37,338 nucleotides of DNA, taken from positions 1 through 37,338 of the forward strand of contig JAWXBP010000435.1 of NCBI GenBank assembly GCA_034440135.1, given 5' to 3'. Position 1 is the stretch's first letter; each line of letters starts with the position of its first letter. The notes under the pieces are model-generated. The model worked only from the letters and a program-made list of their open reading frames with translations, did not search any database and was not told the origin of the DNA. The translations under genes were made by a program, and so were the position numbers. Of the stretch, positions 10,831-28,542 are shown in pieces. Origin of the DNA: Planctomycetia bacterium. GTDB lineage: Bacteria; Planctomycetota; Planctomycetia; Pirellulales; JALHLM01.

Positions 10831-12522
10831 CTAACGACGGCGACGGGCCATCCCCAGCGCCGCTAGACCGACCCCCAGCAAAGCCCAGCTTCCTGGCTCG
10901 GGCACCGCGTTCGCCCCCGGCGAACCGGCGCCGAAGTTGTTGCGGACGTTGTTCAGGTCCGTGATGTCGACGTCGTTGTCGCCGTCCGTATCGCCCAAAC
11001 CAATTCCGGCAAAGTTGTTGCGGACGTTGTTGAGATCGATGATGTTCACGAAGCCGTCGTCGTTGGTGTCGCCGAGCGGACCCGTGCCGACATCGAACGC
11101 GCCGTATTCCACGATGCCGGTATACGGCGTGCCGTCGGCGAACGTAAAGCGGACTTCCAGGTCGCGCTCGCCGCCGACGGTAAACGCATTCCCGATCTCG
11201 TAGGCCTTGTTGGCGTTAAAGACTGAACCGCCGGTCGGGTCCGTATCCGAAAACAATTCGCTCAGCCGATCAGTCTGCGGATTGGCCTCCGCCCAGGTGC
11301 CGACATTCTGTTCGTCCAGACTCTCCCAACCGGCCGGGTTCAGCGAACCGGACGCCGAGCTGATCGTGTAGAAGTCGATTTCCACGGTGGAAGCTGACTG
11401 ATTCTGGATGGCGGCGGCGCCGGTGGCCGGGTCCACCAGCAACACAATGTTGTTGTGCGGGCCGGTGTACTCCACGATCCCAGCTTTCGATTCACCATCA
11501 GGCGTGAAGTAGCGGAACTGCAAGTCGCGCGTTTCCGGCACGCCAAAGGCTCCGGTTTGCCCGACATACGGAGTGCCGATCGAGAGCGGCTGGCCGCCCA
11601 CCGTGATCGAAAGCGGCGCAATGTCCGGATCCGGCAACAACTCGCTCAGCCGTTGCGCGTCGACATTCGCCTCTGACCATCCTGCGGGGGAATTCTTGTC
11701 ATCGAGGCTGCTCCAACCGGCGACGTTCAGTTGGCCAGTACCGGAGCCGATCGTATATCCGTCGATCACAATTGCCGGGCCGATCACGTTCGAGATCGAC
11801 GCGGCGCCTGTGCGCCGATTGACGCTCAGGATGAGCGCATTGTCGTACTCCACCGAGACATCGCCCGAAGCTTGATCGAACGTCGAGCGAATCACCGCGC
11901 CCCGCGGCATGTCGGGCGCGTCGATCGTCGAGAATTGCCCAAACAATTGATTCGCCGGCGCGTCGATGATCTTCCAGCTTTGCCCGATCGTGGGATTGAA
12001 GCTGTCGAATCCGACCGACAGATTGCCTCCGATGAACGCGGCGTCGCTGACACTGATCGGGGTGTTGTTCGCTCCGGTAAAGCGCTGCGACAGTGTGCCG
12101 CCGTTGATATTGAGTTTGTCAGTCGTCAGCTTGCCGTTGCCGACAATCGTCAGCCGGCCAGTGCCGCCCAAGCGCGTGGCTCCGAGTCCCTGAAAGGTGC
12201 TCGGGGGCGCTTCGGTCACGACGAGTGAGCCGCCGTTCCGGATTTCCAGCCCGCCGTTGTTGAGCAACAATCCGTCGATCGGAAACAGCGCCGTGTTGCT
12301 CAGCGTGGCCGTCCCGCCGTTACCGATCAACGCGACATCCTCAGCGAAGCCGTCGCCGGGAACAACGTTCATCGGGTCTTCCGGAGTGCCAAATACCCAA
12401 TTCGGCGCCACGTTCCAATCGGCCGGTCCTGGCACGTTGAAACGGATTGTGGGCTCCTGCGCCGCCGCTGGCGCCGCGAGCGCACCGGTCATGGCCAGAC
12501 AATATCCAATTCTGCGCATCAT
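10831..12522 (-). CDS. PEP-CTERM secreted protein with two copies of an unnamed module and a dockerin pair
   Basis: 563 residues. The signal peptide 1-21 ends PAAA|Q. Residues about 30-130 resemble a beta-solenoid (GNGGTATLSN, LNNGGLEIRNGGSLVV), as in autotransporter-associated strands. Then come two copies of a ~120-residue module (about 229-353 and 358-474), each with an SG.L..(A)GW.SLD core, a W.EAN motif and RLSEL. Residues 484-532 are two dockerin/EF-hand-like repeats, each ending in DLNNVRNNF. The tail 540-563 is PEP-CTERM: VPEPGSW, a hydrophobic helix and RRRR, the mark for exosortase-type sorting. GAGGAG lies eight bases before the ATG but inside a hairpin with the preceding gene's stop codon. 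Probably an outer-surface or matrix protein; its ligand is unknown. Confidence 0.85.
   Translation of the reverse strand: MMRRIGYCLAMTGALAAPAAAQEPTIRFNVPGPADWNVAPNWVFGTPEDPMNVVPGDGFAEDVALIGNGGTATLSNTALFPIDGLLLNNGGLEIRNGGSLVVTEAPPSTFQGLGATRLGGTGRLTIVGNGKLTTDKLNINGGTLSQRFTGANNTPISVSDAAFIGGNLSVGFDSFNPTIGQSWKIIDAPANQLFGQFSTIDAPDMPRGAVIRSTFDQASGDVSVEYDNALILSVNRRTGAASISNVIGPAIVIDGYTIGSGTGQLNVAGWSSLDDKNSPAGWSEANVDAQRLSELLPDPDIAPLSITVGGQPLSIGTPYVGQTGAFGVPETRDLQFRYFTPDGESKAGIVEYTGPHNNIVLLVDPATGAAAIQNQSASTVEIDFYTISSASGSLNPAGWESLDEQNVGTWAEANPQTDRLSELFSDTDPTGGSVFNANKAYEIGNAFTVGGERDLEVRFTFADGTPYTGIVEYGAFDVGTGPLGDTNDDGFVNIIDLNNVRNNFAGIGLGDTDGDNDVDITDLNNVRNNFGAGSPGANAVPEPGSWALLGVGLAALGMARRRR
10927..11073 (-). 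repeat. Dockerin-pair cassette, copy 1 (147 nt)
   Basis: This encodes 49 residues from GDTNDDG to RNNFGA: two EF-hand-like calcium loops with DLNNVRNNF helices. Cassettes of exactly the same length occur in two otherwise different proteins (21311-21457 and 26413-26559). This copy is about 80% identical to the one at 26413-26559 (40 of 49 residues). Confidence 0.85.
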
Positions 12523-12526
12523 GTTG

Positions 12527-12567
12527 GTAACTCCTCAATTTGAAATGATCGGATTTTGAGGAGTTAC
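12527..12567 (-). promoter_or_regulatory. Hairpin joining the upstream stop codon to the Shine-Dalgarno sequence of the next gene
   Basis: The perfect 12-bp inverted repeat has arms at 12556-12567 and 12527-12538 with a 17-base loop. On the minus-strand mRNA the 5' arm GTAACTCCTCAA contains the TAA stop of the gene at 12564-13589. The 3' arm TTGAGGAGTTAC contains the GAGGAG eight bases before the ATG at 12522. Folding would hide the ribosome-binding site until a ribosome reaches the upstream stop, so it looks like a translational-coupling switch. Confidence 0.65.
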
Positions 12568-13589
12568 GACTGACGACGCTTGACGAGCGCCGCGGCGCCG
12601 AGCACGGCGCCGGCCAACAAGGCCAACGACGACGGTTCGGGTACGGCAGCCGGTCCGCCGCCGCCGTAGGCGTTCTTCCAAAGACGGAAGTCGAGTTCAT
12701 TCACGAAGCCATCCTGATTGACGTCTCCTTCTTCGAGCGTGTTGCCTTCGTAGAAGTTCTGGCGGATGACGTCGAAGTCGGTGAGCGTGACCAGATTGTC
12801 GCCGTTGACGTCTCCCTCGACGTTGACGGGCGTGATCACGCTAATGTTGTCCAACGCCCACCACCAATCGTTGTCCGCCGTCACGTATCCGAAGCGGACC
12901 AACATCGATCCGCCGGTTGGGTTGGCGACCGGCAACACAATGGCCTCATTCGCGCGGGACAGCGAGCTGTTGCCCCCGGCACTCGCCGTGTTCAGGGTCA
13001 AGAGGTTGGTGAACGTGGCGCCGCTGTTGAACGACACCTCGACCAATCCTGTCATCTCGGCATAGGGGCGGAAGCTGGAGTCGAATTTCAGCGTCACCGT
13101 GTTGGCGCCCACGCCCGCCAAGGGAATCGGTCGCGTGGTCAGGAAGACGTTCATTGCATCACCGCCAACAGTGACGCGATCCGAATATTGATCGCCGTCG
13201 GCGACCAGCACCGTGCCATGGGCGCCGACGCCGCCTCTAGCGAACTGGTCGCGAGCTTGGCCGGCCTCCGCCACCCACGAGTCGACGTCCATGGCTTGGA
13301 AGCCGAAGTATTCGGGGGTCTCCGGCGTGGGGGGCGGCGTGGTCGAATTGTCACGCACCCAGCCGACGGGCAGATCCGTCGTGAAATCGGTTCTGTCGCC
13401 GCCTGCGCGGGAAACGAAAGGAATCAGCGTCAAGTCTTCGAAGCTCTCGACCAGCAAGGTCGCCGCGTCGGCGGCGCCAGCGAACATCATGCCGCCAGCC
13501 AAGATGGCGGCACCGGCGCCCACGACTTTCGTCGTCCGAGCCTGGCCGAGCCGAGCGGCGAGCCGGGCGGGCCAATTCCTGATGACCAT
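12564..13589 (-). CDS. PEP-CTERM secreted protein, jelly-roll-like domain plus dockerin pair
   Basis: 341 residues. The start at 13589 is supported by GGGAGA about eight bases upstream; a longer frame to 13706 lacks support. The signal peptide is unusual: a basic N-region of about 22 residues, then AGAAILAGGMMFAG and a cleavage site near 40-43. Residues about 45-255 form a domain shared with the protein at 15544-16395, including FDSSFRPY, TGLVEVSF, NPTGGSML and ADNDWWWALDN. Two dockerin-like repeats follow (259-309; GDVNGDN and GDVNQDG loops, FDFRLWKN-type helix). The PEP-CTERM tail starts VPEPSS at 316 and ends KRRQS. It is followed after 41 bases by the next PEP-CTERM gene, and a hairpin suggests coupling. 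Function unknown; probably cell-surface. Confidence 0.87.
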   Translation of the reverse strand: MVIRNWPARLAARLGQARTTKVVGAGAAILAGGMMFAGAADAATLLVESFEDLTLIPFVSRAGGDRTDFTTDLPVGWVRDNSTTPPPTPETPEYFGFQAMDVDSWVAEAGQARDQFARGGVGAHGTVLVADGDQYSDRVTVGGDAMNVFLTTRPIPLAGVGANTVTLKFDSSFRPYAEMTGLVEVSFNSGATFTNLLTLNTASAGGNSSLSRANEAIVLPVANPTGGSMLVRFGYVTADNDWWWALDNISVITPVNVEGDVNGDNLVTLTDFDVIRQNFYEGNTLEEGDVNQDGFVNELDFRLWKNAYGGGGPAAVPEPSSLALLAGAVLGAAALVKRRQS

Positions 13590-13850
13590 GGATGTATTCT
13601 CCCAAGTAGGTGAGTTTGCTGACGGGGAATCTGAACCTGGCGGTCGCAGGACGATATGGGCCATCCCGGCCACGGCGCTGCGCGCGGCAGGACCATCATT
13701 ATTCACTAACTAACGCCGATCGCGATGAGCGCCAAGCTAGAATCGCGCAAAAAAACAGCGGAAAATGTACCCTTCATCCTAGCTGGAGTCCGCGGGCAAG
13801 TCGCCATCCTGCCCTACTGAGACACGAGACGTCCGACGGCGTGAATTGGC

Positions 13851-15404
13851 TCAGTCGTACCCGAATGCCCGCAGGTAGGGCGTCAGGCGCTCGAAGTACG
13901 CGCCGAGCGGTCGCTCATAGTGCCTCCACCGCCCCGCAGCATGGGTGTAAACGGGCTGGCGAACCGCATCGTGGCTGGGGGAGTTCACAACTTTGTGCTG
14001 GGCAGCTTCGCGATAATGCAGCACGTTGTCCTCCCACGGCAGGCCTAAGAACGCCAGGGCACGCTTCGCCTGCCCGGACAGGTCCTTGACCGTGTCCTCG
14101 TACTTTACTTCCAACGATTGATCCGCGAGCCATTCCCGCACCCGCAGCCAGATGTTCATATCGCTGGCATACATGGCGCAAACGCTGCCTGGGGTCAGCA
14201 GGCCGGCGCCAAACTCGGTCAGTGGAAAATGGCGCAGGTAATTGCTCACCAGCACGTCGCGAGGATCGCGCAGCGCGACGACAAAGCGAGATTCCGGAAA
14301 CAAGCGGAACAGCCCCGCAATTAGCGACATATGGTTCGGGTTCTTATCCAGATGCACGCGGCCCGCGAGTGGTTCTCCTTGAATCGCCTCGAACGCTTGC
14401 AGATAACTTTCCCGTTGTTGCGCAAGCCGCGGCCGCGGGATGTCTCGCAAGACCTCGGCCGTGAGCGGTCGCTCGCCCCGGAGCTGATGCATGGCCGGAA
14501 AAATGTCGCGGGTGAACACAGCCCGCTCCGGTGAATCGACCAAGCCAGGATGCGCGCCCACGCACTGTTCCAGTAGCGTCGTGCCGGTACGGGGAAAGCC
14601 CAGCAAGTGCGCCACACCGCTGCACCGCGCGTCGGTCGGCAAATCATCGTCGCGCCAGGTCGTGAACGTGGCCTCGTCCAGTCCCTCGTAGAGCTGCCGC
14701 AAGGTCTCGTTAAGTGCGAAGGCGCGGCGTGACATGGGTTCGGCTTGAGGAAACTGCCGATGCAACTGCTTGGCCTGCTCGATAGCTTCCCAGGCGCCGG
14801 TGTAATCGCCGACGTCGTCGCGCAGTTGACAAAGCTCCGTCCAGGCTTGAACGTGAACCAACGGATGCGGCGCGGACGCCGAAGTCAAGTCGAGGAGTAA
14901 CGACTCACACCCAGCGTAGTCTTTGCGGCGGCGCAGCAGTCGCGTGAGAATGAGTCGTGGTTCCGGCTGCAACGGGGCGGAATGGACGCATTCCTCGATG
15001 GCTGCGAGCGCTTCGTCCACGCGGTTGCTCCGCTCATAGAGCACGGCTAACTCGGCCAGCAGCGGTGGCGCCAAGCGGCCGCCGTTCCGCGCGGCTTCCA
15101 AGACTTCGATCGCGAGATTCGGCCGGTGCAACTCGTTGAACGTTTGTACGAGCGGCGGCAGGATGCGCTCGTCGAAGCCGGCCAGCGATCTCACTCGCGC
15201 CAGTAGCTCCTCCGCCGCCGCGATGCGATAGACTTGGCCGAGTGCGCGGGCGTTTTCCAGGAGCGCACGAACATTCCGCGGCGCTTGCGTCACGGCCGCT
15301 GCAAATCGCTCGAAAGCGGCTTCCCGTTCGCCGCGCTGCCAGAGCGCGCGCGCTTCCTGCAGCGGCGCGAGATCGTCAAACTCAGGCGCGGGAACGGCGC
15401 TCAT
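13851..15404 (-). CDS. TPR-containing sulfotransferase family protein (copy 1)
   Basis: The predicted role is transfer of sulfate from PAPS to an unknown acceptor, in the cytoplasm. 517 residues from ATG 15404; the frame can be extended to a TTG at 15482 without support. Residues about 10-240 are helical TPR-like repeats (ALWQRGEREAAFERF, LYERSNRVDEALAAIEE). The C-terminal half has GFPRTGTT at 269-276, the 5'-phosphosulfate loop, and VVALRDPRDVLVS at 375-387, the 3'-phosphate site, as in the Sulfotransferase_3-type fold. It is clearly paralogous to the gene at 16564-18138 throughout. There is no signal peptide. It sits between two paralogous PEP-CTERM genes. No Shine-Dalgarno sequence is visible. 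Confidence 0.87.
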   Translation of the reverse strand: MSAVPAPEFDDLAPLQEARALWQRGEREAAFERFAAAVTQAPRNVRALLENARALGQVYRIAAAEELLARVRSLAGFDERILPPLVQTFNELHRPNLAIEVLEAARNGGRLAPPLLAELAVLYERSNRVDEALAAIEECVHSAPLQPEPRLILTRLLRRRKDYAGCESLLLDLTSASAPHPLVHVQAWTELCQLRDDVGDYTGAWEAIEQAKQLHRQFPQAEPMSRRAFALNETLRQLYEGLDEATFTTWRDDDLPTDARCSGVAHLLGFPRTGTTLLEQCVGAHPGLVDSPERAVFTRDIFPAMHQLRGERPLTAEVLRDIPRPRLAQQRESYLQAFEAIQGEPLAGRVHLDKNPNHMSLIAGLFRLFPESRFVVALRDPRDVLVSNYLRHFPLTEFGAGLLTPGSVCAMYASDMNIWLRVREWLADQSLEVKYEDTVKDLSGQAKRALAFLGLPWEDNVLHYREAAQHKVVNSPSHDAVRQPVYTHAAGRWRHYERPLGAYFERLTPYLRAFGYD

Positions 15405-15480
15405 AAGTAGCGTGCAATAGAGAAGCCAACGACCATCCCAGTTTAGCGAATCCCGAACAGCGACTGACTCGCGGCGCAAC

Positions 15481-15513
15481 AAAAAATCCCCGCCGGCACG
15501 AACCAGCGGGGAT
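15481..15513 (-). terminator. Rho-independent terminator of the PEP-CTERM gene 15544-16395
   Basis: The stem ATCCCCGC (15486-15493) / GCGGGGAT (15506-15513) is perfect. Read on the minus strand it is followed by six T's (15481-15486). It lies about 30 bases after the stop codon. Confidence 0.85.
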
Positions 15514-15543
15514 GTAGGATGGCAACCAACAATGGTAGTCGCC

Positions 15544-16395
15544 TTACTTGCGGCGACGAAGTCCGGCGACGGTCAGTCCGGCGGCCGCCAAGCCAGCCAG
15601 CGCGATCGAACTCGGCTCCGGCACCGGGTTCCCCGTCACCTCGACGTTGTCGACCGCCCACCACCAGTCGTTGTCGGCCGTGGCCATGCCGAAGCGAATC
15701 AGCATCGAGCCGCCGGTCGGATTGTCGATCGGCAAGCTCAACGATTCATTCGCGCGGGTGAGGGAGCTGTCGCCGCCCGAGTTGGCGGCGTTCAGCGTCA
15801 ACAAGTTGCTGAAGTTCGCGCCGCCGTCAAAGGAAACGTCGACCAAACCGGTCAGCGCTTCGTAGGGGCGGAAACTGGAATCGAAGTTCAGCGCCGCCGT
15901 GCCGGCCGCGATGCCGGTCAAGTCGATCGGCGATGTGGTCATGAACACGTTGAACGACTGGCTTGCTTCGCCCAGCACGTTGCCGTTGCCGGCGTCGTCG
16001 TCATAGGCGTCGGCATCGGCCACCATCACGGCGCCGGAACCCTTCGTAAACGAAGCGCGGTCCTGATTTGCTTCGGTGGCCACCCAGGCAGTCACGTCCA
16101 TGAACGTGAAGCCGAAAAACTCCGCCGGCCCGCCGACAGGAGTCGCGCCATTGTCGCGCGCCCAGCCAGTCGGCGGCACGTCGGTCCAGTCGGTGCCGTC
16201 GCCGCCGCTTTCGGTCGACGAGACGAACGGGCCCAGCGTCAGCCCATTGAAATCCTCGGATAGCAACGTGTCCGCCTGCGCGACGCCAGCGAACATCATT
16301 CCGCCAGCCAGGATCGCCGCACCCGCGAGGTGCGGCGTTTTCGGCAAGCGACGGAGTCGCTTCGCCAACTGATTTCCCAAATGCTTGATTCTCAT
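15544..16395 (-). CDS. PEP-CTERM secreted protein, jelly-roll-like domain (paralog)
   Basis: 283 residues, starting at ATG 16395; a longer frame to 16503 has no start support. The N-terminus has a basic stretch (KRLRRLPKT), then AGAAILAGGMMFAG and the cleavage site AQA|D at 41. Residues 45-255 match the protein at 12564-13589, with FFGFTFMDVTAW, FDSSFRPY, NPTGGSMLIRFG and ADNDWWWAVDN. The fold is probably a beta-sandwich of the MAM/LamG/CBM kind. Unlike its paralog it has no dockerin pair: the domain runs straight into the PEP-CTERM tail VPEPSS (258) to RRRK. A terminator follows. It lies between the two TPR-sulfotransferase genes. Ligand unknown. Confidence 0.87.
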   Translation of the reverse strand: MRIKHLGNQLAKRLRRLPKTPHLAGAAILAGGMMFAGVAQADTLLSEDFNGLTLGPFVSSTESGGDGTDWTDVPPTGWARDNGATPVGGPAEFFGFTFMDVTAWVATEANQDRASFTKGSGAVMVADADAYDDDAGNGNVLGEASQSFNVFMTTSPIDLTGIAAGTAALNFDSSFRPYEALTGLVDVSFDGGANFSNLLTLNAANSGGDSSLTRANESLSLPIDNPTGGSMLIRFGMATADNDWWWAVDNVEVTGNPVPEPSSIALAGLAAAGLTVAGLRRRK

Positions 16396-16563
16396 GGCGC
16401 CGTATCTCAGTAGATGGATCGCAAAACGAGCCGCTGCATGCGGCCAACAGGGGAATTCCCGACATACCCCGTCAGGGTAGCATCGCAGCGTGAGGCGTGT
16501 CAAACAAAAAGCAGGCTGTTTGCCAAGTTATCGCGCATTTGCCCTACATTCCGCGTCAAGCAA

Positions 16564-18138
16564 TCACAGGGAGCCCCGCAGTCGTTCAAGCGACTGCGTC
16601 AGCCGCGGGAGGACGCCCGCCAACTGCTGCTCGTAGTTGCGCCAACGTCCGACAGCGGAATGGTACACCGGCCGAGCGACCCTGTCATAGGATGGGGAAA
16701 AAACGGTCCGCTGTGCGCCGATGTCTCGGTAGTGATCGACATCGTCATGCCACGGCAGCCCCAAGTGCTCCAAGATCCGCAGCGAGGTAGATCGCACGTC
16801 GGCGATGAGATCCTCGTACCAGATCTCGCGACAGGCGTTTCCCGTCTTCGCGCGCAACCCGCGCCACGCTTCCAGATCGGCAATTAGCCGATCAGCCGCG
16901 GCATCCAAGTCGAGGAAATCGACGCTGAAATCATTCAACGGCAGGTAAGCCATCAGGCAACTCACGAGCACGTCGCGCGGATCGCGCAGCATGACGATCA
17001 CGCGACCGTGCGGAGCAAATCTCAGGTAGGGCGTGATCAGCGGCAGCAGCGACGGGTTCTTGTCCAGCAGCCAGGCGTCGCCGCGCGGCTGTCCCACAGC
17101 CGCCGACATCGCATCGGCAAAAGCGCTTCGTTGTGGGGCCAGCAGTGGTTCGGGAATCGCGTCGAGCAGTTCGGGCGACAGGTCCGCTGGCGAATGACGT
17201 CCCAGCAATACCGGAAACATGAGCCGGGGAAACGCGTCGAATTCGTCGCAGGCGACGATGCCCGGATGAGCGTCAAGAATGCGCTCCAGCAACGTCGTAC
17301 CGCTGCGCGGCAACCCCGTCAGTAAAGCGAGTTTCGGAGTATCGTCCACGGCGCCGGCCCGCCAGCGATTGAAGTTCTCCGGCAGAATATCTTGGGCCAA
17401 ATTCATCAACGGCGGCACCAGCCGGTCGCGGTGCGCTTTAGCTTCGCGCGCATTCGGGGAGGTGAGCTGCTTGCCGGCGAGCATTGCTTGCCAGGCTTCG
17501 GCGTAGGCGCCTTCCTCGTCGAGCAACTGTGCAAGTTCCGCGCAGGCACGGCTTCGCGTCATCCAATGGGTCGTGGGGGCGTCGGCGATCGCCTGCAATC
17601 CCTCACGGGCCGCTTCAAGCGCCCCTTGGCGGCGCTGCACGCGGGCTTTCAAGAACTTCCCTTCCGCGTCGTGCGGCTGTGCGCGCAATCGCGCCTCGGC
17701 ATGGGTGAGCGCCTCGTCGAGACGGTTGCGCCGTTCGTACAATAGCCCCAGCTCCAGGTGCGATTCCGAGGTCGGGTTCCGCGCCGCAAGCGCCTGGTGG
17801 AAGACGGCGATCGCCTGGTCGGTTCGGCGCATCAGGCGGTAGCTTTGCGCCGCCAAGTGCAGGATGGGCCCCTGACCGCGTCCCAGATCCAGCAATCGGT
17901 CCACCAACTCCTCGGCCCGAGCGTAGTTGTACATCGCGCCGAAGGCTCGGCTGGCGTCGACCAATGCGCGGACATGCCGGGGATTGTCCCGCACGGCGCG
18001 ATCAAAACGGGCCAAGGCGCCAAGCAAGTCTTGTTTCACCCACTGTGCGCGGGCGGCCTGCAGTTCCGGCAAATCGTCGAGAACGGGGGCGGCCGGCCGG
18101 ACTTTGCGCCGTTTCGCTCCTTTACGTTTGTCTGCCAA
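16564..18138 (-). CDS. TPR-containing sulfotransferase family protein (copy 2)
   Basis: 524 residues when started at TTG 18138 (MADKRKGAKRRK). ATGs at 18261 and 18321 are in frame, but the paralog's homology begins only at about residue 15, so the shorter form is preferred. Residues about 20-240 are TPR-like helices. The 5'-phosphosulfate loop is GLPRSGTT at 275-282, and VIVMLRDPRDVLVS at 380-393 is the 3'-phosphate site. The predicted activity is PAPS-dependent sulfation in the cytoplasm; the acceptor (polysaccharide, lipid or protein) cannot be read from sequence. With the PEP-CTERM gene downstream it mirrors the copy-1 arrangement, implying duplication of a two-gene unit. Confidence 0.84.
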   Translation of the reverse strand: MADKRKGAKRRKVRPAAPVLDDLPELQAARAQWVKQDLLGALARFDRAVRDNPRHVRALVDASRAFGAMYNYARAEELVDRLLDLGRGQGPILHLAAQSYRLMRRTDQAIAVFHQALAARNPTSESHLELGLLYERRNRLDEALTHAEARLRAQPHDAEGKFLKARVQRRQGALEAAREGLQAIADAPTTHWMTRSRACAELAQLLDEEGAYAEAWQAMLAGKQLTSPNAREAKAHRDRLVPPLMNLAQDILPENFNRWRAGAVDDTPKLALLTGLPRSGTTLLERILDAHPGIVACDEFDAFPRLMFPVLLGRHSPADLSPELLDAIPEPLLAPQRSAFADAMSAAVGQPRGDAWLLDKNPSLLPLITPYLRFAPHGRVIVMLRDPRDVLVSCLMAYLPLNDFSVDFLDLDAAADRLIADLEAWRGLRAKTGNACREIWYEDLIADVRSTSLRILEHLGLPWHDDVDHYRDIGAQRTVFSPSYDRVARPVYHSAVGRWRNYEQQLAGVLPRLTQSLERLRGSL

Positions 18139-18303
18139 GGGAAAGACTCGCCCGGACTTGCGAATGGCGGTATGCGGCTTCGATGAAGTCGAGTCTAACC
18201 ACGACGCCCGCGTTGGTCCAGTTTGCCGATTTCCGCGGGCTGGCACCCACTTCGGTTCCATCACCTCCATGGAACGAAGTGCTGACGATCGCCAAACAGT
18301 CCA

Positions 18304-18331
18304 TTGATAGAATCGTGGCATCGCCTATGCT
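18304..18331 (+). promoter_or_regulatory. Candidate promoter for the lipoprotein-DUF1559 operon
   Basis: TTGATA (18304-18309, 5 of 6) and TATGCT (18326-18331, 4 of 6) are separated by 16 bases. It lies in the 312-base divergent gap between the sulfotransferase and the lipoprotein gene, about 120 bases before the ATG. Nothing else stands out in that gap. Confidence 0.42.
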
Positions 18332-20023: not shown

Positions 20024-21073
20024 ATGGCACAATTTGCGATGCCCCAGGACGTTCGCGATGCGGCTGAGGGCGGAGCCACGGCGGACGAGGTTGCGGAACA
20101 ACTGCGCGTCGCCGAAACCATTCTGTCATATCAACGCGCGACCGGCGGATGGCCGAAGAATTACGACCGTGCTGAACCGCTGACGGAGCTGCAACTGCGA
20201 GCCGCAGAGGGCGACCGCGACAAGAACGACGCCACGATCGACAATAGCGCGACGTACACAGAAGTGCGACTGCTCGCCGCCGCATATCAAGCCGCTCACG
20301 ACGACCGCTTCCGAGTCGCCGCATTGAAGGGTATTGAGTATCTGTTGCGCGCTCAGTACACGAACGGCGGCTGGCCTCAACGTTTCCCCGCTGCGGAAGG
20401 TTACGCCCGGTACATCACGTTCAACGACAACGCCATGATCGGCGTGTTGAAGCTGATGCACGACGTTGCCGCGGGAAACGATCCGTTTTCGCTGATTGCG
20501 AGCGAACTTCGCGAGCCATGCAGGCAGGCCGAACTGCGCGGCGTCGAATGTATCCTGAAATGCCAGGTTCGCGTCGACGGTCGATTGACGGTTTGGTGCG
20601 CGCAACACCATCACGAGACCTTCGCGCCGGAGCGGGCGCGCGCGTATGAACTCGCGTCGCTCAGCGGCGCGGAGTCCGTCGGCATCGTACGCTTCCTCAT
20701 ACAGATCGAGGCGCCCGGTCCGGACGTCGTCGCGGCCATCGAGGGCGCCACGCGCTGGTTCGAGGAATCCAAACTGACTGGCATCCGAGTTGTCGAAGTG
20801 AAGGACGCGGCCACGGCGAAAGGGTACGACAAGATCGTCGTCAGCGACGCCGGTGCGCCGCCGATGTGGGCGCGCTTCTATGACATTCAAACGAATCAAC
20901 CGATTTTTTGCAGCCGAGACGGAGTTCCTCGCCGAGCCCTCGCCGACATCTCCTACGAGCGCCGCACCGGTTACTCCTGGCTGGGTTACTACGCCGCCTC
21001 CTTGCTGGACGTCGATTTGCCGGCATGGAAACGCCGCATCGCGGCTTCAAAAGTTTCGACCGGCAAGCCATGA
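20024..21073 (+). CDS. Pectate lyase, polysaccharide lyase family 10-like, no signal peptide
   Basis: 349 residues from ATG 20024 (20039 also possible). Family motifs run through the chain: GGWPKN at 41-46, DNSAT at 73-77, NGGWPQ at 114-119, ITFNDNAM at 131-138, TVWCAQH at 189-195, SLSGAES at 212-218, and RFYDIQTNQPIFCSRDG near 289-305. These are hallmarks of the alpha/alpha-toroid lyases that cleave polygalacturonate by beta-elimination. Homologs are normally exported, but no signal peptide is visible, and the frame upstream runs back into the DUF1559 gene without one. Either the N-terminus is lost or it is a cytoplasmic form. No Shine-Dalgarno sequence. The last 27 bases overlap the end of the convergent giant gene. 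Confidence 0.83.
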   Translation: MAQFAMPQDVRDAAEGGATADEVAEQLRVAETILSYQRATGGWPKNYDRAEPLTELQLRAAEGDRDKNDATIDNSATYTEVRLLAAAYQAAHDDRFRVAALKGIEYLLRAQYTNGGWPQRFPAAEGYARYITFNDNAMIGVLKLMHDVAAGNDPFSLIASELREPCRQAELRGVECILKCQVRVDGRLTVWCAQHHHETFAPERARAYELASLSGAESVGIVRFLIQIEAPGPDVVAAIEGATRWFEESKLTGIRVVEVKDAATAKGYDKIVVSDAGAPPMWARFYDIQTNQPIFCSRDGVPRRALADISYERRTGYSWLGYYAASLLDVDLPAWKRRIAASKVSTGKP

Positions 21074-24000
21074 AGGCTCAAAGGATCGCACAAGTTTCTG
21101 ATGCCCGTCGCGCAGCTTAGAGGGCAGCCCCGCCTCGATGTGCAGAAGTTCCAGCAGCGCGCGATCCCAGGAGTTTTCGCGCGAGCTTTCCTTCTCTTGG
21201 CTGGCAAGCGGCGCGAACAAATAGGCTTGATCCGCTTCCACATCGCGGATGCGCGAGCGCGGCGCCAAAGGCACCTGCTGTGTGACACGGGCGGCGGGGG
21301 ACGATGCGCTCGCGCCGAAGTGGTTGCGGACGTTATTGAGATCGGTGACGTCGATATCGCCATCGCCGTCGGTATCGCCTAGACCGACGCCGCCGAAGTT
21401 GTTGCGGACGTTGTTAAGGTCGGTGATGCCGACTTCGCCGTCGCCGTCCGTGTCCCCCAGCAATGTCGGTTCTTCCAAGCCGGGCGAGCCGTGAAGATCT
21501 CGGCTTGCGCGCCAGGAGGCGCCGCTTTCCCAGGCGTCCGTCGGGCCCTCGGCGTCCAGAATGACGAGTGAATATCCGGAGCCGTCAGTCTCGGGAATCC
21601 AGTCTTCATCGTAGCTGAAGTCGAGGATCTTCGCGCCCGATTTATCCTCCAGGCGCAGGCGTTCGCCGTTGTTGTCGAGGCGTCCGCCGTAAACGCCGGC
21701 GACAGGCGCTGCGTCACCGTAGCGGCTGGCGAAGGCGTCGGCGTTTTGCACCAACACGAGCCGCGCGCCGGGCGCGAGCTCCGCGATGGACGAAGCGGCA
21801 AAGTCGAACGAGATGCCCGCATTGAAGCGCGCATTCGCGAGCGTCAACGCAATCGGACCAGTGTTGACCAGTTCGATGAATTCGTAGTTTGCGTCTTCGT
21901 AGATGCCGCCTGGCGGACCTTCGGCCGGATGGTAGTGGATCTCCGAGATCCGGAGATAATCTTCCAGCGGCCGATCGGAGACGGTGCTTTCCACGATGAC
22001 CGAATCTGTAGCGATCAAGTTGCCGCGGAAATCGTAGGCTTCCAGTTGTAGCGTGTGTTCGCCGAAGGGCGCCGGCACTTTCGCCGTCCAACTGTCGAGG
22101 TCGGTCCACGTCAACGCGAGGGGCTGGTCGCTTCCCGCCAGGCGGATTTCGCGGACATTGACCCAGCCGTTGCCGCCAATCGTCGCGGTCGCTTCGTCAA
22201 CGACCAAGCCGTCCGCGGTGGTGATCGTGAACGGAGTCTCCGCCACACGGGATTTGACTTGTGCGAGGATGCTGTTGGAGCGCGCGATGATGAACGCCAG
22301 ATGGCTGGCAAACGGTTGCGCCGGCAGCAATTGCCCGTAGTTTGTCGCCCAATAGGCCATGTAAGTGGCGTTGTAGGTGGTGCTAATAATGTCCTGCACA
22401 TGCCCGTAATACGCCCGAGCTCGTGCTGGACTGTTCATGAGCTTCTGCAATTCCGAACTGGGGACGAGCGGACGATTGAGGTCGTAAAAAGCGTCCAGAT
22501 CGTGCGGCATGAACAAGAACCGGTGATCGCTCGGCCGCTCGTAGAACATCACATTGTGCTGCGAACCATCGCCGCCGTAGCTGTCGCCGGCGCCGGAAAG
22601 CATTGAGATGGCATAGCCGCGCAGCCACTGATCGACGTCGATCACCTCGTTGGGATCGACGGGATCGCGCCCGCCGCTCGCTGCAAAGCCTTTCACGAAC
22701 GTCATCAGGCGACTGTAGTCGTCTGCGGCGCGATTGTTCTTGAGCAGGTAAGTCCAGCGATAGTCTTCTGGGTTGTTGCCCATATCGCGAATCGGCGTGC
22801 CGACCACCGAATCGGGGAACGGCACTTTCAGCCCTTCTTTAGTGCCGTCATCCGTCGAGTTGAGCTGGTAGACCAACTCGTACTCGTAGATGTTGCCCTC
22901 GTCCCCGTTCTCGTATTGAGAATCAAGATAGTCGCTGCCATAGCGCGCCAACTGCAATTCGGCGCCGCCCGTGTGCGTCGATTGCGGTGAGATGACCTTG
23001 ATGAGATCGTGGTACTTGGTCGGCAAATCTTCGGCGTGGTTCATGGCCGCGTGAATCAGCATTTCGCGCTGGCCGAAGCCGGTGCTTTCCGAGCGATCGA
23101 TTGCCACCGTGTTATGCACGCCGCGGAACAACTGCTCGGCATTGAATTGCACGGAGAAGCCGAGCCGCTCGGCCGTCGTGCGGCTGTGTTCGCTCCCCTT
23201 GAGCCGGATGCCGACGTCATAGAACACCTGTGATTCGTCGTAGATCACCGTCCCCGGAATCCAATCGTTGCTCATCAGATTCGTGGTCCGATGCAGCAGC
23301 GAAGCGTCCGGTTGCGTCAGCAGCAACCGCAGGTTGTGCAGACCGTTGGTGGCCGCCTGGTTGTCGTTGACTTTGTAGAGCGCGCGCGATTCTCGCCCTC
23401 GCGCCGGAAATGAAGAAACGGCGGCTTCCGGCGAGGCGTCGACGCCTTCCACGTAGAACTGCACGATCGTGCTGGCCGCCTGACCGGGGATGACGCCGCG
23501 ATGGAGTCCGTCGGCTCCCAAGGTCATGGGCACGCTGTTCCAGGCGCCGCCAGCGGCTGAATACCAGAGCGTCAGCGACGCCACGCCTGCTGCATCGGAG
23601 GCCCGCGCACTCACGGTCACCGGAGCGAACGCCGCCGGCACCACGGGCGAATGTTTGAACTCCGTATAGGTGGGCCCGACGTTCTCTTCCAAACGAGTGT
23701 TATCCGCACCTGGCGTACCGCGCAGTTCGGGCTGATCGATCTCGGTCGTCTGCACGAGTCGGTTGAAATACAGCCGGGTATGCAATTGGCTGGAGCCAGC
23801 CACCCAGCGGGCGCGAAAGGAGATTTCGTACTCGCGGTTGTTGACGATGTTGACAAATTCGTTCCCGAACTTCAGCGTCGTTTCCGCGTGGTTTGACATA
23901 TGTTCTGTCTCGCCAGTCGCGCGGAGCCGCAACACTTCGTTGCTGGGCTCGTCCGGATCCGCAACGACGTCGCCGTAGTGGTTGCCGATGATCCGCCATT

Positions 24001-26122
24001 TGTCCGTGTTGCCAGCGGAGAATGTGCTGTTCTGAATTACTTGCCGATTCGTGCCCAGTGGGTCTTCGACGACGCGAATGTCGTCGAGCAACACTTCGCC
24101 GTTGTCGAGCAGGCCCATCACGAATTCTTGCCACTGCCCGTCGGGACCGACTTTGCTGGCCTGAGCAAGGCCTCGATAGGTGTACGTCCGCCATTCTGTC
24201 TGGCTGGTGGAATCGCTCGCGGCCCAGGCTTCTGGCGACGCGTTGTCCGCCCAAGGGTCGCGCAATTCCAACGTCACGCCGCCGCCGTCGGCAAACTCGG
24301 GCCAGCGCCCGCCTTCGTAATAGTGCACTTCATCGGCCGGGTTTCCGACACTGTCGCGGAGCCGAATGCGCTCGTCCGTATTGGACAGTGAACCGGCGAA
24401 GCCGCCGATAATCGGGGCCGATGGATACTTCGCCGCGAGTGCGACGGGATCGCTCGCGACGACCAGATACGCGCCTGGCGCCATGACGGTTCCCGCCGGA
24501 AAGACGTACTCCATGGCGTCGTCGAACGACCAGGCGGAGAGATCCACCGGGACGTCGCCGCGATTGAACAACTCCACCCATTCTTCGGCACTTTCGACGA
24601 ATGGCTCGGCTGGCTGCGGCGGCGTGATCAGTTCCGCGGTGAGCAACGTGGCGCCGAACACGACGTCGGTCGAGCCCACGGTGCGTTGGTGCGCTTCCAC
24701 GGCCAGCACGTTTTCGCCGGACACCAAGAATTCCGGCGGAATGACGAACAAATCGCTCATCACCGCGTCGCCGACGGAACCCGTGGCTTCTGTGAGATGG
24801 TTCAGTTCGGCGTCCGGCGTGTCCTGATTGAAATCCAGGAAGCGATGCCCGTTGATATAGAACACGGCGCCGTCGTCGATTACGTGCCGCAACTGCACGG
24901 ACTGTTCCGCGGAATCGAGCTGAAACGTCGTGCGGAAATAGTACGTCATGAACCCGTGCGTCAGCAGCGTCGTCTTTGGCAGACCGTTCAACTGCGCCGT
25001 TTCGTAGTAGAACATGCCGCCGCCGGATTTCCACTGCGTGTCGTTGTAGCCTGGCTCGCGCCAGGCCTCGCCACGGTCCGCACCGGAGTCGTCGTAGCGC
25101 CACGTCGCCGTGAGCGGCAACAACGTCGTGGCCGGGCCGAATTCGCCAGCCGTAGCCGGCGAGCCCAACGTCGGCGCGTCGTGATACATGATCTCGTTGA
25201 TCACAATGTCGTCGTGCAACGAAAACACGTTCTCGCCGCCCGGCGTCAATGCCGACGGGCGCAGGAACTCGCTGGTCATCGCGTCGAGCCGGGCCTGGCC
25301 AAACTCGGTCACGCGCGCGGCGTCCACCATCTCCGCGCCGTTGTTCGCCGCCAGCAACAGTTCCTCGCCCAGACCTGGCTGGAAGCCCAATTGGGCGACG
25401 TTCAACGTCAGGTAGTTTCCCGCGGCCAACGATTGCACTGGCAGCGTATAGCTGTCGCCGGAACCGGACATAATGCGATAGCCGTTGAGCGGCACGCCCG
25501 CGTCGTTGGTGTTCACCAACTCCAGCCAGAATTGATTGCCGACCGGCGCAACCTCCGACAGCCGAAGTCCCGCGACGTCGGGCGATGTCGGCACGCCCGG
25601 CACGCCGAAATTCTCCTGGCCCGGCGTGCCGCCCACGCGAACGCTGCTGGCCCAATTCGCCGCCGGCTCGCTGGCGAGATCCCGATTGATTTTCGCGAGG
25701 CTGGTCCCGCTCCCGTCCGGAGCGATGGGCCAAAGCCCTCCGTCCGAATACGCAATCTCATTCATCAGGCGATCGTTGCGATCGATCAGCTCGAGCGTGT
25801 CGCCGTTGTTGGACAATTTCCCCGTGAACGGCCCCAGCGCTCCGGCAAACTGTCCTGAGGCCGCGAGCGCCGCGGGATTGCGGGCAATAACGAGGTAATC
25901 GCCGCCGCTCAGGAAAGTGCTTTCCGCGAAGGTGAACTGAATGCCGCCATCGAGACGCCAGTTCGACAGGTCCATGTCGACGGCCATCTGGTTGTGCAGT
26001 TCGACCCATTCCAACTGTTCATCGGCGTCGGTGGGATGATACATCAACTCGTTGAACACGACGGTGCTGTCGAGCGCCAGACGTTGTTCGAGAGATTCCA
26101 AATTGATCCGACGCCGGCGCAT
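21047..26122 (-). CDS. Giant secreted lamin-tail / CotH-kinase / dockerin protein
   Basis: 1691 residues. The start at 26122 is preceded by GGGAG. The N-terminus MRRRRINLESLEQRLALDS resembles the LEPR-XLL motif of large planctomycete surface proteins; no classical signal peptide is seen. Domains in order: lamin-tail (about 24-180), a second lamin-tail-like region (184-300), a third split region (306-640, with NEIMYHD and EEWVELFNRGDVPVDLSAW), a carbohydrate-binding-like sandwich (645-790), and a CotH-type domain (about 925-1290; IRLKGSEHSR near 970 and FMPHDLDAFYDLN near 1210). Then come a fourth lamin-tail domain (1390-1550), a dockerin pair (1556-1604) and an 87-residue tail with no PEP-CTERM. 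CotH proteins include secreted kinases, so phosphorylation of extracellular protein is possible but unproven. The 3' end overlaps the pectate-lyase gene by 27 bases. Confidence 0.88.
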   Translation of the reverse strand: MRRRRINLESLEQRLALDSTVVFNELMYHPTDADEQLEWVELHNQMAVDMDLSNWRLDGGIQFTFAESTFLSGGDYLVIARNPAALAASGQFAGALGPFTGKLSNNGDTLELIDRNDRLMNEIAYSDGGLWPIAPDGSGTSLAKINRDLASEPAANWASSVRVGGTPGQENFGVPGVPTSPDVAGLRLSEVAPVGNQFWLELVNTNDAGVPLNGYRIMSGSGDSYTLPVQSLAAGNYLTLNVAQLGFQPGLGEELLLAANNGAEMVDAARVTEFGQARLDAMTSEFLRPSALTPGGENVFSLHDDIVINEIMYHDAPTLGSPATAGEFGPATTLLPLTATWRYDDSGADRGEAWREPGYNDTQWKSGGGMFYYETAQLNGLPKTTLLTHGFMTYYFRTTFQLDSAEQSVQLRHVIDDGAVFYINGHRFLDFNQDTPDAELNHLTEATGSVGDAVMSDLFVIPPEFLVSGENVLAVEAHQRTVGSTDVVFGATLLTAELITPPQPAEPFVESAEEWVELFNRGDVPVDLSAWSFDDAMEYVFPAGTVMAPGAYLVVASDPVALAAKYPSAPIIGGFAGSLSNTDERIRLRDSVGNPADEVHYYEGGRWPEFADGGGVTLELRDPWADNASPEAWAASDSTSQTEWRTYTYRGLAQASKVGPDGQWQEFVMGLLDNGEVLLDDIRVVEDPLGTNRQVIQNSTFSAGNTDKWRIIGNHYGDVVADPDEPSNEVLRLRATGETEHMSNHAETTLKFGNEFVNIVNNREYEISFRARWVAGSSQLHTRLYFNRLVQTTEIDQPELRGTPGADNTRLEENVGPTYTEFKHSPVVPAAFAPVTVSARASDAAGVASLTLWYSAAGGAWNSVPMTLGADGLHRGVIPGQAASTIVQFYVEGVDASPEAAVSSFPARGRESRALYKVNDNQAATNGLHNLRLLLTQPDASLLHRTTNLMSNDWIPGTVIYDESQVFYDVGIRLKGSEHSRTTAERLGFSVQFNAEQLFRGVHNTVAIDRSESTGFGQREMLIHAAMNHAEDLPTKYHDLIKVISPQSTHTGGAELQLARYGSDYLDSQYENGDEGNIYEYELVYQLNSTDDGTKEGLKVPFPDSVVGTPIRDMGNNPEDYRWTYLLKNNRAADDYSRLMTFVKGFAASGGRDPVDPNEVIDVDQWLRGYAISMLSGAGDSYGGDGSQHNVMFYERPSDHRFLFMPHDLDAFYDLNRPLVPSSELQKLMNSPARARAYYGHVQDIISTTYNATYMAYWATNYGQLLPAQPFASHLAFIIARSNSILAQVKSRVAETPFTITTADGLVVDEATATIGGNGWVNVREIRLAGSDQPLALTWTDLDSWTAKVPAPFGEHTLQLEAYDFRGNLIATDSVIVESTVSDRPLEDYLRISEIHYHPAEGPPGGIYEDANYEFIELVNTGPIALTLANARFNAGISFDFAASSIAELAPGARLVLVQNADAFASRYGDAAPVAGVYGGRLDNNGERLRLEDKSGAKILDFSYDEDWIPETDGSGYSLVILDAEGPTDAWESGASWRASRDLHGSPGLEEPTLLGDTDGDGEVGITDLNNVRNNFGGVGLGDTDGDGDIDVTDLNNVRNHFGASASSPAARVTQQVPLAPRSRIRDVEADQAYLFAPLASQEKESSRENSWDRALLELLHIEAGLPSKLRDGHQKLVRSFEPSWLAGRNF
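21311..21457 (-). repeat. Dockerin-pair cassette, copy 2 (147 nt)
   Basis: 49 residues from GDTDGDGEVG to RNHFGA. By eye 39 of 49 positions match copy 3 (26413-26559). It sits near the C-terminus of the CotH protein, whose other domains share nothing with the PEP-CTERM hosts. Confidence 0.85.
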
Positions 26123-26269
26123 GGAGTTCACTCCCAGTAAAAAGTCGCAAGTCCCCGCGGAGCGCGCTCGCCGGCGCGCAAGAATCGCTAAGCGAAGGTT
26201 CCCCCGGGATGAGCGCAGACGCCCACCCGTCCTCAGCTTAACAAGAAATCGAATCCGAAAGCTGGAAGG

Positions 26270-26301
26270 CGATGGGCCGGACGCAACGCGCCGGCCCATC
26301 G
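26270..26301 (-). terminator. Terminator-like hairpin after the double PEP-CTERM gene
   Basis: A perfect 11-bp stem CGATGGGCCGG (26270-26280) / CCGGCCCATCG (26291-26301) has a 10-base loop. It starts 13 bases after the stop codon at 26314. There is no proper T-run on the minus strand (CCTTCC follows), so termination may be rho-dependent, or the hairpin may stabilise the 3' end. Confidence 0.55.
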
Positions 26302-26313
26302 TCCCCCTTCAGA

Positions 26314-28542
26314 TTAAGCGAGACGACGCCGCGTGGCGAGAGCGCCGACGCCCAGGCAAAGAGCCAAAATCAAGCTACCCGGTTCCGGAACCGCGGCCGC
26401 ACCAGGCTGGCCGGCCCCGAAGTTGTTGCGGACGTTGTTCAAGTCGGTGATGTCGACATCGTTGTCGTTGTCGGTATCGCCGAGCCCGTTGCCGGAGAAG
26501 TTGTTGCGAACGTTGTTCAGGTCGGTGATATCGACGTCGGCGTCGCCGTCCGTATCGCCCAAGGGCCCAGAGGCCGCAGCGATTCCAAAGAACTGAACTT
26601 CGCTCAACCCCGCGAACGCGGCATCAGGTTCCGTACCATTGGCTGGGTACGTCACCCCATTGTGGTTGGAGCGAACGTCAAACCGCACAAAGCGAATGCC
26701 GTCGCGGTCGAGAGCGATCGTCTCCGAGAAGTCAGCGTCACCGACGCCCGGGGCCACGTCCAGATTGAAGCTGCCGGCCGGCGTGAAGGGTCCAGCAAGA
26801 TCCGCGGCGACCGAGATATCAAACAGGTTGACGCCGCGACCCAAGAGTTCCGGCCGACCATCCAGCGTCTCATTGTAGTTCCAAATCTTCACGTCGGTCA
26901 CGTCCGTGACGGCGCCCATGTCGAAGACCACGAACGGGGCCGTGTCGACGCCGCCGTCGAAGCCGTTGCCGTGGGAAAGCCACATGAAATTGTCGGGGAC
27001 AATTGTGTGCGTTCCCGTGGCATAGTCCATGCCGGCGCCGGTCAACATTAGAAATGCGTTCCGGTTGAATGCGGCCGTATCCAGCTCGCTGGAAACTTCC
27101 GCAATGCTGACATTGGGCAAGCGGATTTCACTGCCAGAAGTCGGCGTTTCATCGTATTGAATAACGAAAGGGGCCAATTCGCTTCCCACTTGCGGAACGA
27201 CTTCCAGCGACAAGTCACGGTAGCCATTCGCCAAAAACGGCTTTCCCAGACTGATCGTTTGATTCACGGCTAACGTCGTCGAGCCCGGATTTTTGATCTC
27301 GCTCAATTGCTTGGAGCGGGGGTTCGCCTTCTCCCAACCGGCCACAGGCGCGTCGGTGAAACTGTCCCAGCCCACGGTGTCGAGGCTGCCACTGCCGGAG
27401 ACGATGCTGTAGTTGTCCAGCTCGAACGTAGCGCCGGTTCGATTGGTCAACGTCGTGTCGCCGGAGTAGGGATCGACCTTGAGCAGGAGTTGGGCGTTCG
27501 CCGGGGAACTCAAACTTCCAAACAGGCCCAGCATGGCGGCCGCGATTGCGCCCTTCCGCGTACGTCGCGCCAGCAACAGCGCCGCGGCGCTCAGCGAAAG
27601 CAACAGCACGCTCGACGGTTCCGGCACGGTGATGCCGTTCTGGCCGAGGCGGTTCTTCAAGAGTCGGAAATCGAAGCCGTTGACGACGCCATTCCTGTCG
27701 ATGTCCCCCTGTGCCAAGGTGTTGCCAGTGCCAAAATTGTCGCGCAGGATCCCGTAATCGAGCAAATCGACCTCTTCATCGGAATTGATGTCGGCGGGAT
27801 CGAACTCGGGCAAATCCGTCGGGCCACCTCCGTCGGCCAACAATGCGATCTGAACGTTTCGCAACGGTTCGTTCCAGATCGCCAGATCGTCCATCCAGCC
27901 GAGAAACGTGGAGTGGCCGTCGGCGCGACTGCCGATGATTAACTGGTTGTCGTTGACGAGCAAGGGTCCGGCCATGCCAGCGGAACCCGCGGCAACTCCA
28001 TCGACGAAGAATTCGACCGAAGCGCCTACGGTAGCCACGACGGCAACGTGATGCCATTCCTGCGGCACGATGGAAACCGTGCTGCTGTAGAAGGACAGTC
28101 CCGTAGTGGGATCGGTTTGGTGTAAGTATTCCAGGAACCCGCTGGGGCTAATGCGGAGCTCAAAATTCCCGGGGTAGTTGTTGGTAGCCTCGCCGCTCGG
28201 TCCCTTCACCGCGATGAAGTAGTAATTGGCGGCATCCGACATGTTCACCCACCCGGCGATGGTGAGACCTTCCGCCATGTCCAGTGAGGGTGAATCAGGC
28301 ACAAAGAAGCCGCCGCCACCGCCCCCCGGATTCTCCATGTTGAAGGAAGTGCCGGAACCGATCTGCGTCGGAACGTCTTCCTGGAAATTGCCGAACAACA
28401 CGGACGAGGGATTGTTGTTGAATCCCGAGGAGTCTTCGACTTCGACTCCATCAAAGTTGTAATAGGCGACCAAGTCCGCCTGGGACGTCGAGGCGGCCAA
28501 TAACAGGCCGATCATTGACAATGTGCGCACCGCGAACCTCAT
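26314..28542 (-). CDS. Double PEP-CTERM protein: two complete secreted proteins in one frame
   Basis: 742 residues from ATG 28542, supported by AGGAGA six bases upstream (a longer frame to 28620 is not). Half 1: signal peptide 1-22 (SQA|D), LamG-like lectin domain 24-240, dockerin-like pair 250-300 (FDFRLLKN class), PEP-CTERM tail 306-330 (VPEPSS, hydrophobic helix, RRTRK). Half 2 continues without a stop: RRTRK also forms the N-region of a second signal peptide, with hydrophobic AIAAAMLGLFGSLSS and cleavage PANA|Q at 350. Then come one copy of the unnamed module (351-465), an F5/8-type discoidin-like domain (478-654), a dockerin pair of the LNNVRNNFG class (662-710) and a second PEP-CTERM tail (718-742). 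Probably a surface carbohydrate-binding protein, possibly processed into two. Confidence 0.87.
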   Translation of the reverse strand: MRFAVRTLSMIGLLLAASTSQADLVAYYNFDGVEVEDSSGFNNNPSSVLFGNFQEDVPTQIGSGTSFNMENPGGGGGGFFVPDSPSLDMAEGLTIAGWVNMSDAANYYFIAVKGPSGEATNNYPGNFELRISPSGFLEYLHQTDPTTGLSFYSSTVSIVPQEWHHVAVVATVGASVEFFVDGVAAGSAGMAGPLLVNDNQLIIGSRADGHSTFLGWMDDLAIWNEPLRNVQIALLADGGGPTDLPEFDPADINSDEEVDLLDYGILRDNFGTGNTLAQGDIDRNGVVNGFDFRLLKNRLGQNGITVPEPSSVLLLSLSAAALLLARRTRKGAIAAAMLGLFGSLSSPANAQLLLKVDPYSGDTTLTNRTGATFELDNYSIVSGSGSLDTVGWDSFTDAPVAGWEKANPRSKQLSEIKNPGSTTLAVNQTISLGKPFLANGYRDLSLEVVPQVGSELAPFVIQYDETPTSGSEIRLPNVSIAEVSSELDTAAFNRNAFLMLTGAGMDYATGTHTIVPDNFMWLSHGNGFDGGVDTAPFVVFDMGAVTDVTDVKIWNYNETLDGRPELLGRGVNLFDISVAADLAGPFTPAGSFNLDVAPGVGDADFSETIALDRDGIRFVRFDVRSNHNGVTYPANGTEPDAAFAGLSEVQFFGIAAASGPLGDTDGDADVDITDLNNVRNNFSGNGLGDTDNDNDVDITDLNNVRNNFGAGQPGAAAVPEPGSLILALCLGVGALATRRRLA
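26413..26559 (-). repeat. Dockerin-pair cassette, copy 3 (147 nt)
   Basis: 49 residues from GDTDGDADVD to RNNFGA, about 80% identical to the copies at 10927-11073 and 21311-21457. It is in the second half of the double PEP-CTERM protein; the first half has a different dockerin class. Confidence 0.85.

Follow-up and report, generated by a model that had tools for sequence, protein, structure and literature searches.

Polyproteins are rare in bacteria. Viral glycoprotein polyproteins, for example flavivirus prM/E, contain membrane hairpins with an internal signal sequence and are cut co-translationally. The closest precedent is the cytochrome b/c1 polyprotein of Bradyrhizobium japonicum, in which one gene, fbcH, reportedly gives rise to two products through cutting of an internal signal sequence by signal peptidase, so that internal signal peptides would have a precedent in bacteria. 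The genes described here resemble fbcH in that several products are proposed from one bacterial gene with an internal signal sequence; fbcH differs in being a single gene whose first product spans the membrane several times, and in having neither a sortase-type cut nor a basic cluster common to two sorting signals. In mammals, IGSF1 is reported to have a joint that crosses the membrane and contains an internal signal sequence, at which the chain is cut co-translationally (PMC9162367). Such a joint would be common to flavivirus prM/E, IGSF1 and our locus, but the first two belong to the eukaryotic ER system and are not known to involve PEP-CTERM or exosortase.

PEP-CTERM motifs were described near the extreme C-terminus of proteins, and the few followed by long tails were regarded as perhaps non-functional (Haft 2006; PMC1569441). 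Each unit of the fused proteins reported here shares with the PEP-CTERM/exosortase (EpsH) proteins a signal peptide and a tail made up of PEP motif, hydrophobic helix and basic cluster, and exosortases are present in the genome; unlike in the classical proteins (PMC1569441), a motif lies in the middle of the protein, ahead of a second export signal. In the open-access literature examined, no paper paired PEP-CTERM with a polyprotein, and internal or tandem PEP-CTERM motifs were not reported as a sorting device. The combination of an internal signal peptide with an exosortase tail, at the scale described below, appears to be new.

Layout and conservation of the fused frame

The window, the whole stretch of DNA analysed, comprises the 37,338 nucleotides of contig JAWXBP010000435.1 of a member of the Pirellulales. 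On the minus strand, where all features given with two-dot coordinates lie, it contains a single ORF (26314..28542) that encodes a pair of complete PEP-CTERM proteins and reads from 28542 to a TAA at 26314 and is free of stops over 742 aa. Unit 1 begins with an N-terminal signal peptide recognized by sequence reading and kept in the orthologue described below (residues 1-22, MRFAVRTLSMIGLLLAASTSQA↓D; 28477..28542). It continues with a LamG/concanavalin-like domain (residues 74-233; 27844..28323; Pfam Laminin_G_3, PF13385, E 1e-22), a type I dockerin (residues 250-299; 27646..27795; Pfam Dockerin_1, PF00404, E 1e-6), and an internal PEP-CTERM sorting tail consisting of VPEP, a hydrophobic helix and RRTRK (residues 305-330; 27553..27630; Pfam/TIGR02595). 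The putative internal signal peptide, made up of RRTRK, an h-region and PANA↓Q, spans residues 326-350 (27493..27567). Unit 2 comprises an unnamed beta-sandwich module (residues 351-466; 27145..27492), a possible discoidin-like region (residues 509-616; 26695..27018), a second dockerin-like stretch (residues 660-712; 26407..26565), and the C-terminal PEP-CTERM, detected by Pfam and by the genome search (residues 716-742; 26317..26397). This dockerin-like stretch was called from its sequence motif, D-x-N/D-x-D repeated twice; it is not scored by Pfam and has many paralogues in the genome. The parts listed in a first-pass annotation made from the sequence alone were largely recovered, namely the stop-free frame, the LamG domain, the dockerins and both PEP-CTERM tails; its discoidin-like domain was downgraded, the sole basis being a DUF4457 match that, at 21.4 bits, falls below the cut-off of 26.7. 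Directly 3' of the stop, a strong hairpin (26265..26307; -34.2 kcal/mol, z -4.45) is the probable transcription end of the fused gene.

A Pfam search with the 742-aa protein gave two PEP-CTERM stretches, the best at residues 305-327, where TIGR02595 finds the same motif, and a genome search placed the two motifs at 27556-27630 and 26323-26394. Both copies are above the Pfam cut-off (TIGR02595/PF07589) and have the PEP motif, hydrophobic helix and basic cluster. More than 410 residues follow the internal motif, and the extreme C-terminal position is held by the second copy only; judged from its sequence, the internal copy would work like a classical member, but it is not classed as one. At the junction (VPEPSSVLLLSLSAAALLLARRTRKGAIAAAMLGLFGSLSSPANA↓QLLL), the PEP motif and its helix lead into the basic cluster, after which come the second hydrophobic stretch and A-x-A, with RRTRK at residues 326-330, PANA↓Q at 347-351 and an ATG at 27534 encoding M337. 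Like a type I signal peptide, the second stretch has a basic n-region (RRTRK), an h-region, and small residues at -3 and -1. As proposed earlier, RRTRK would belong to both the first tail and the second signal peptide; RR and RK are kept in the orthologue.

This orthologue was found in genome G001, the only other species of the genus and family compared, as a full-length fused ORF with 73% identity and no stop. The recommendation to look for the same fusion in related genomes thus gave a positive result. Within the fused frame, pN/pS was 0.26 and 0.33 for the two units, a sign of purifying selection, and 0.49 for the junction. VPEP, RR, RK and A-x-A↓Q are kept between the two junctions while hydrophobic residues vary freely, and the G001 cleavage site reads AASA↓Q, with A-x-A retained and a drifted h-region, as would be expected of two functional signals whose main constraint is hydrophobicity. 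In the one-contig genome G086, a chain with the same succession of LamG, dockerin, PEP, signal and module can be aligned across the junction, and VPEP and RR are retained in relatives. Nearly all orthologous junctions retain VPEP, the R/K cluster and A-x-A and drift at hydrophobic positions, a pattern expected if both cleavage signals are used; at the second junction of the L169/L171 pair, the alignment is poor at the cleavage site.

Recurrence and origin of tandem PEP-CTERM units

The first-pass annotation had treated the fusion as a single gene. This did not hold: tandem fused PEP-CTERM ORFs are a recurrent class, with at least 57 fused ORFs and about 75 junctions verified across the order, among them triples and an ORF of four units. 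The source genome itself contains two further fused ORFs (C63 and C477) and a three-unit ORF with two junctions that is 1234 aa long in both species of the genus. In this triple (L039:1213-4917 and L040:1759-5463), units one and two are similar to a stand-alone PEP-CTERM gene that lies farther downstream in L039 (10454-11395). The four-motif protein, of 1512 aa (L197; G007:C1:3712271-3732270), has three internal PEP-CTERM motifs, and its first three motifs are exactly 262 residues apart, as would result if an entire sorted unit had been duplicated in tandem.

A first scan of genome contigs with the whole fused protein as query gave no match. A profile built from junctions yielded dozens more fused ORFs in the Lacipirellulaceae; decayed internal tails would be missed, because the profile required VPEP. 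Named strains with fused ORFs are Lacipirellula limnantheis I41 (NZ_CP036339.1), with a 100% match to a fused protein of G158, and Aeoliella straminimaris ICT_H6.2, also of the Lacipirellulaceae, with about 25 near-full-length junctions among the matches listed. In 12 genomes outside the Pirellulales (Verrucomicrobiota and other Planctomycetota), no full-length junction was found, and G593 gave the one incomplete match (positions 1-42); with its strict cut-off and a single even draw, the phylum-wide search says little on absence elsewhere. Single linkage merged 61 junctions via shared modules and left 14 alone, figures that do not count independent fusions.

A count independent of the junction profile was made in G007, a complete one-contig genome of the same genus as A. 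straminimaris, by classifying motifs as terminal (up to 60 residues before the stop), intermediate (60-120) or internal (at least 120 residues left). Of at most 150 scored PF07589 matches, 120 lay in the stretches examined, which were picked for the highest number of PEP-CTERM motifs and thereby favour clusters. These 120 comprised 95 terminal and 25 internal motifs (the latter in 20 ORFs), with none in the intermediate class and with a cut-off that would likewise miss decayed internal tails. A hydrophobic stretch and an A-x-A site follow all 25 internal motifs, one of which failed the automatic signal-peptide test owing to a long n-region and was accepted by eye.

Among the loci found with the junction profile, a signal-peptide-like stretch likewise follows every internal motif (59/59), the motifs having been defined blind to the downstream sequence. 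A lenient signal-peptide test was dropped after 39% of random windows passed it. The strict test, which asks for peak hydropathy and then A-x-A at the right distance, was passed by 59/59 junctions, against pass rates of 3.6% for random windows drawn from these ORFs and 22% for junctions after shuffling; the junction of the fused ORF in the window is among those that pass. The hydrophobic core of the second arm has a median length of 16, against 15.5 in N-terminal signal peptides, and internal and terminal PEP-CTERM tails have equal core lengths. Some second units are recognizable enzymes, a glucose/sorbosone dehydrogenase (L180) and a GDSL hydrolase (L146). Standalone homologues that align with the dehydrogenase unit have a Met and signal peptide of their own in the corresponding position (RRKHWQHCVAAVVVLLVGMAAHAQAQ↓PDFL in the fused form, MRQAVVPALWLALGAPQLASAQ↓LTDP in the standalone form).

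In fused ORFs, dockerin-like repeats stand ahead of the tail in 66 of 76 internal and 40 of 47 terminal cases, as in dockerin-bearing planctomycete surface proteins, from which the present proteins differ in being fused into tandem chains. In Lacipirellulaceae and relatives, only 32 of 75 single-unit ORFs have such repeats before the tail, compared with the 66/76 internal tails.

An origin of the fused ORF from two separate genes, as originally suggested, is supported by the standalone homologues of the dehydrogenase unit and by an unfused pair in the window with the same order of parts. The upstream counterpart encodes a secreted dockerin PEP-CTERM protein (12564..13706, read from 13706 to 12564); after a 41-base gap, the downstream counterpart (10831..12522, read from 12522 to 10831) encodes a protein with its own Met and signal peptide (MMRRIGYCLAMTGALAAPAAAQ), two module copies, dockerin-like repeats and a PEP-CTERM. 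In the cluster-favouring stretches of G007, 24 of the 95 terminal PEP-CTERM genes have another ORF with signal peptide and PEP-CTERM within 160 nt downstream. The end of a PEP-CTERM tail and the start of a signal peptide both carry positive charges that face the cytoplasm. If the stop separating two such genes were lost, both signals would therefore survive at little cost, and we infer that this common need for a cytoplasmic basic cluster is the reason why fusion is tolerated. A further locus, L078, was considered as a two-gene case with stops between the units and rejected, as it consists of a PEP-CTERM gene end followed by a noncoding frame, with no matching second unit.

The fusion is old in some of these genes: a 1432-aa triple aligns across its junctions in other genera and in metagenome genomes with 40-68% identity. 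Recent fusion could partly account for the kept cleavage signals, and the alignment of triples between genera at this identity argues against it. Together with the G001 orthologue, these alignments agree with the earlier polyprotein proposal insofar as one conserved open frame codes for several complete proteins.

Proposed processing of the junction

We consider it probable, with some reserve, that the joint forms a membrane hairpin of which exosortase cuts the first arm and signal peptidase I the second, giving separate sorted proteins. Signal peptide 1 would export unit 1, and the internal PEP-CTERM helix would halt transfer, with its basic cluster, RRTRK, staying on the cytoplasmic side. 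This cluster would also serve as n-region of the second signal peptide, restarting Sec export for unit 2. Cleavage by exosortase would then be expected at the internal PEP motif, releasing or anchoring unit 1, and cleavage by signal peptidase I after PANA, freeing unit 2, which would be sorted later through its own terminal PEP-CTERM; a membrane hairpin of about 45 residues would remain. The source genome has two PF09721 matches with the CSGLR, N-x-x-R and His motifs of exosortases. We infer the export topology and both cuts from the protein sequences, the main evidence, an indirect one, being the retention of both motifs.

Cutting by signal peptidase I only is rather unlikely in our estimation. 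Unit 1 would then keep its PEP-CTERM helix and the cut second arm as a two-helix anchor. Cutting of internal signal sequences has a bacterial precedent in fbcH. The reading assumes that exosortase requires the tail at the chain end. Described PEP-CTERM substrates do have a C-terminal motif, beyond which the chain extends by a median of three residues (PMC1569441). Against this stand the internal VPEP, fully conserved in 5/5 orthologous pairs with adjacent residues drifting, and the equal core lengths of internal and terminal tails. The same motifs weigh on the idea of an uncut chain, in which the hairpin would be a permanent central anchor joining two extracellular modules. Such an anchor fits the single frame of the ORF and would have a topology stable by the positive-inside rule, yet it needs neither A-x-A nor VPEP, and both persist, A-x-A at 59/59 junctions. 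Second units can moreover be whole enzymes that exist alone with a signal peptide, and we regard an uncut chain as improbable.

Translation of unit 2 from an internal start in the junction, which would make the fused frame incidental, has in our view only a slight chance of being correct. In-frame ATG, GTG or TTG codons occur in 42 of 59 junction loops, with ATG in 15, and the ATG of M337 corresponds to a GTG in the G001 orthologue; however, 17 of the 59 loops have no start codon at all, and start codons in the other pairs lie mostly at non-conserved places. The ATG at 27534, named beforehand as a possible separate start, is an unlikely one, only 14 residues before the cut and with no positive n-region. 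Finally, although the window comes from a draft genome of 534 contigs, an assembly or sequencing artefact, including the missed stop, frameshift or separate genes in relatives that had been raised as objections, is virtually excluded by the complete orthologue in G001, the fused ORFs in single-contig genomes and the purifying selection in frame on both sides of the junction.

Two cuts per junction, one by exosortase and one by signal peptidase I, therefore remain for us the most economical reading, held with moderate confidence. Aquatic Lacipirellulaceae and close relatives would thus probably make two to four separately addressed surface proteins per gene, from a product cut like viral polyproteins. 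On balance, slightly in favour, we judge that tandem polyproteins of 2-4 units, as fixed-ratio sets, form a sizeable part of the exosortase-sorted surface proteome of Lacipirellulaceae and close Pirellulales, and may represent a general bacterial strategy that has so far been undescribed. Should the cuts prove real, polyproteins would be in large-scale use in a cultured bacterial family, with a joint where two classical sorting signals have one basic cluster in common and a natural route to several surface proteins at a fixed ratio. Exosortase would then take internal substrates, contrary to the suggested non-function of internal PEP-CTERM motifs. As L. limnantheis I41 and A. straminimaris ICT_H6.2 are named strains, the idea is open to direct testing by mass spectrometry.

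The unnamed module and neighbouring genes

The module of unit 2 has 151 copies in the related loci examined and is predicted by AlphaFold to be a beta-sandwich (pLDDT 90.7); a prediction of the full-length fused protein from three sequences was set aside (pLDDT 32). Matches to the LTD profile were weak (4 of 60 members, E 0.02 or worse). Among solved structures, CBM2 and cohesins were closest (Z 6-7), and Foldseek gave lamin tail domains. The predicted likeness to LTD, CBM2 and cohesin may reflect only a common arrangement. One idea is that the module, beside so many dockerin-like repeats, has a cohesin-like role and is a candidate unrecognized binding partner.

Downstream of the fused ORF, the window contains a 1750-aa ORF (21047-26299) with a lamin-tail/CotH-like look, a probable start near 26122 (MRRRRINLESLEQRLALD) and a terminal dockerin-like repeat without PEP-CTERM. 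A gene reading as a SecD-SecF fusion (7102-10476) adjoins the PEP-CTERM gene cluster. In both species, TPR-sulfotransferase-like genes are interleaved with PEP-CTERM genes (window 10831-18321 and L040), and perhaps modify surface proteins.
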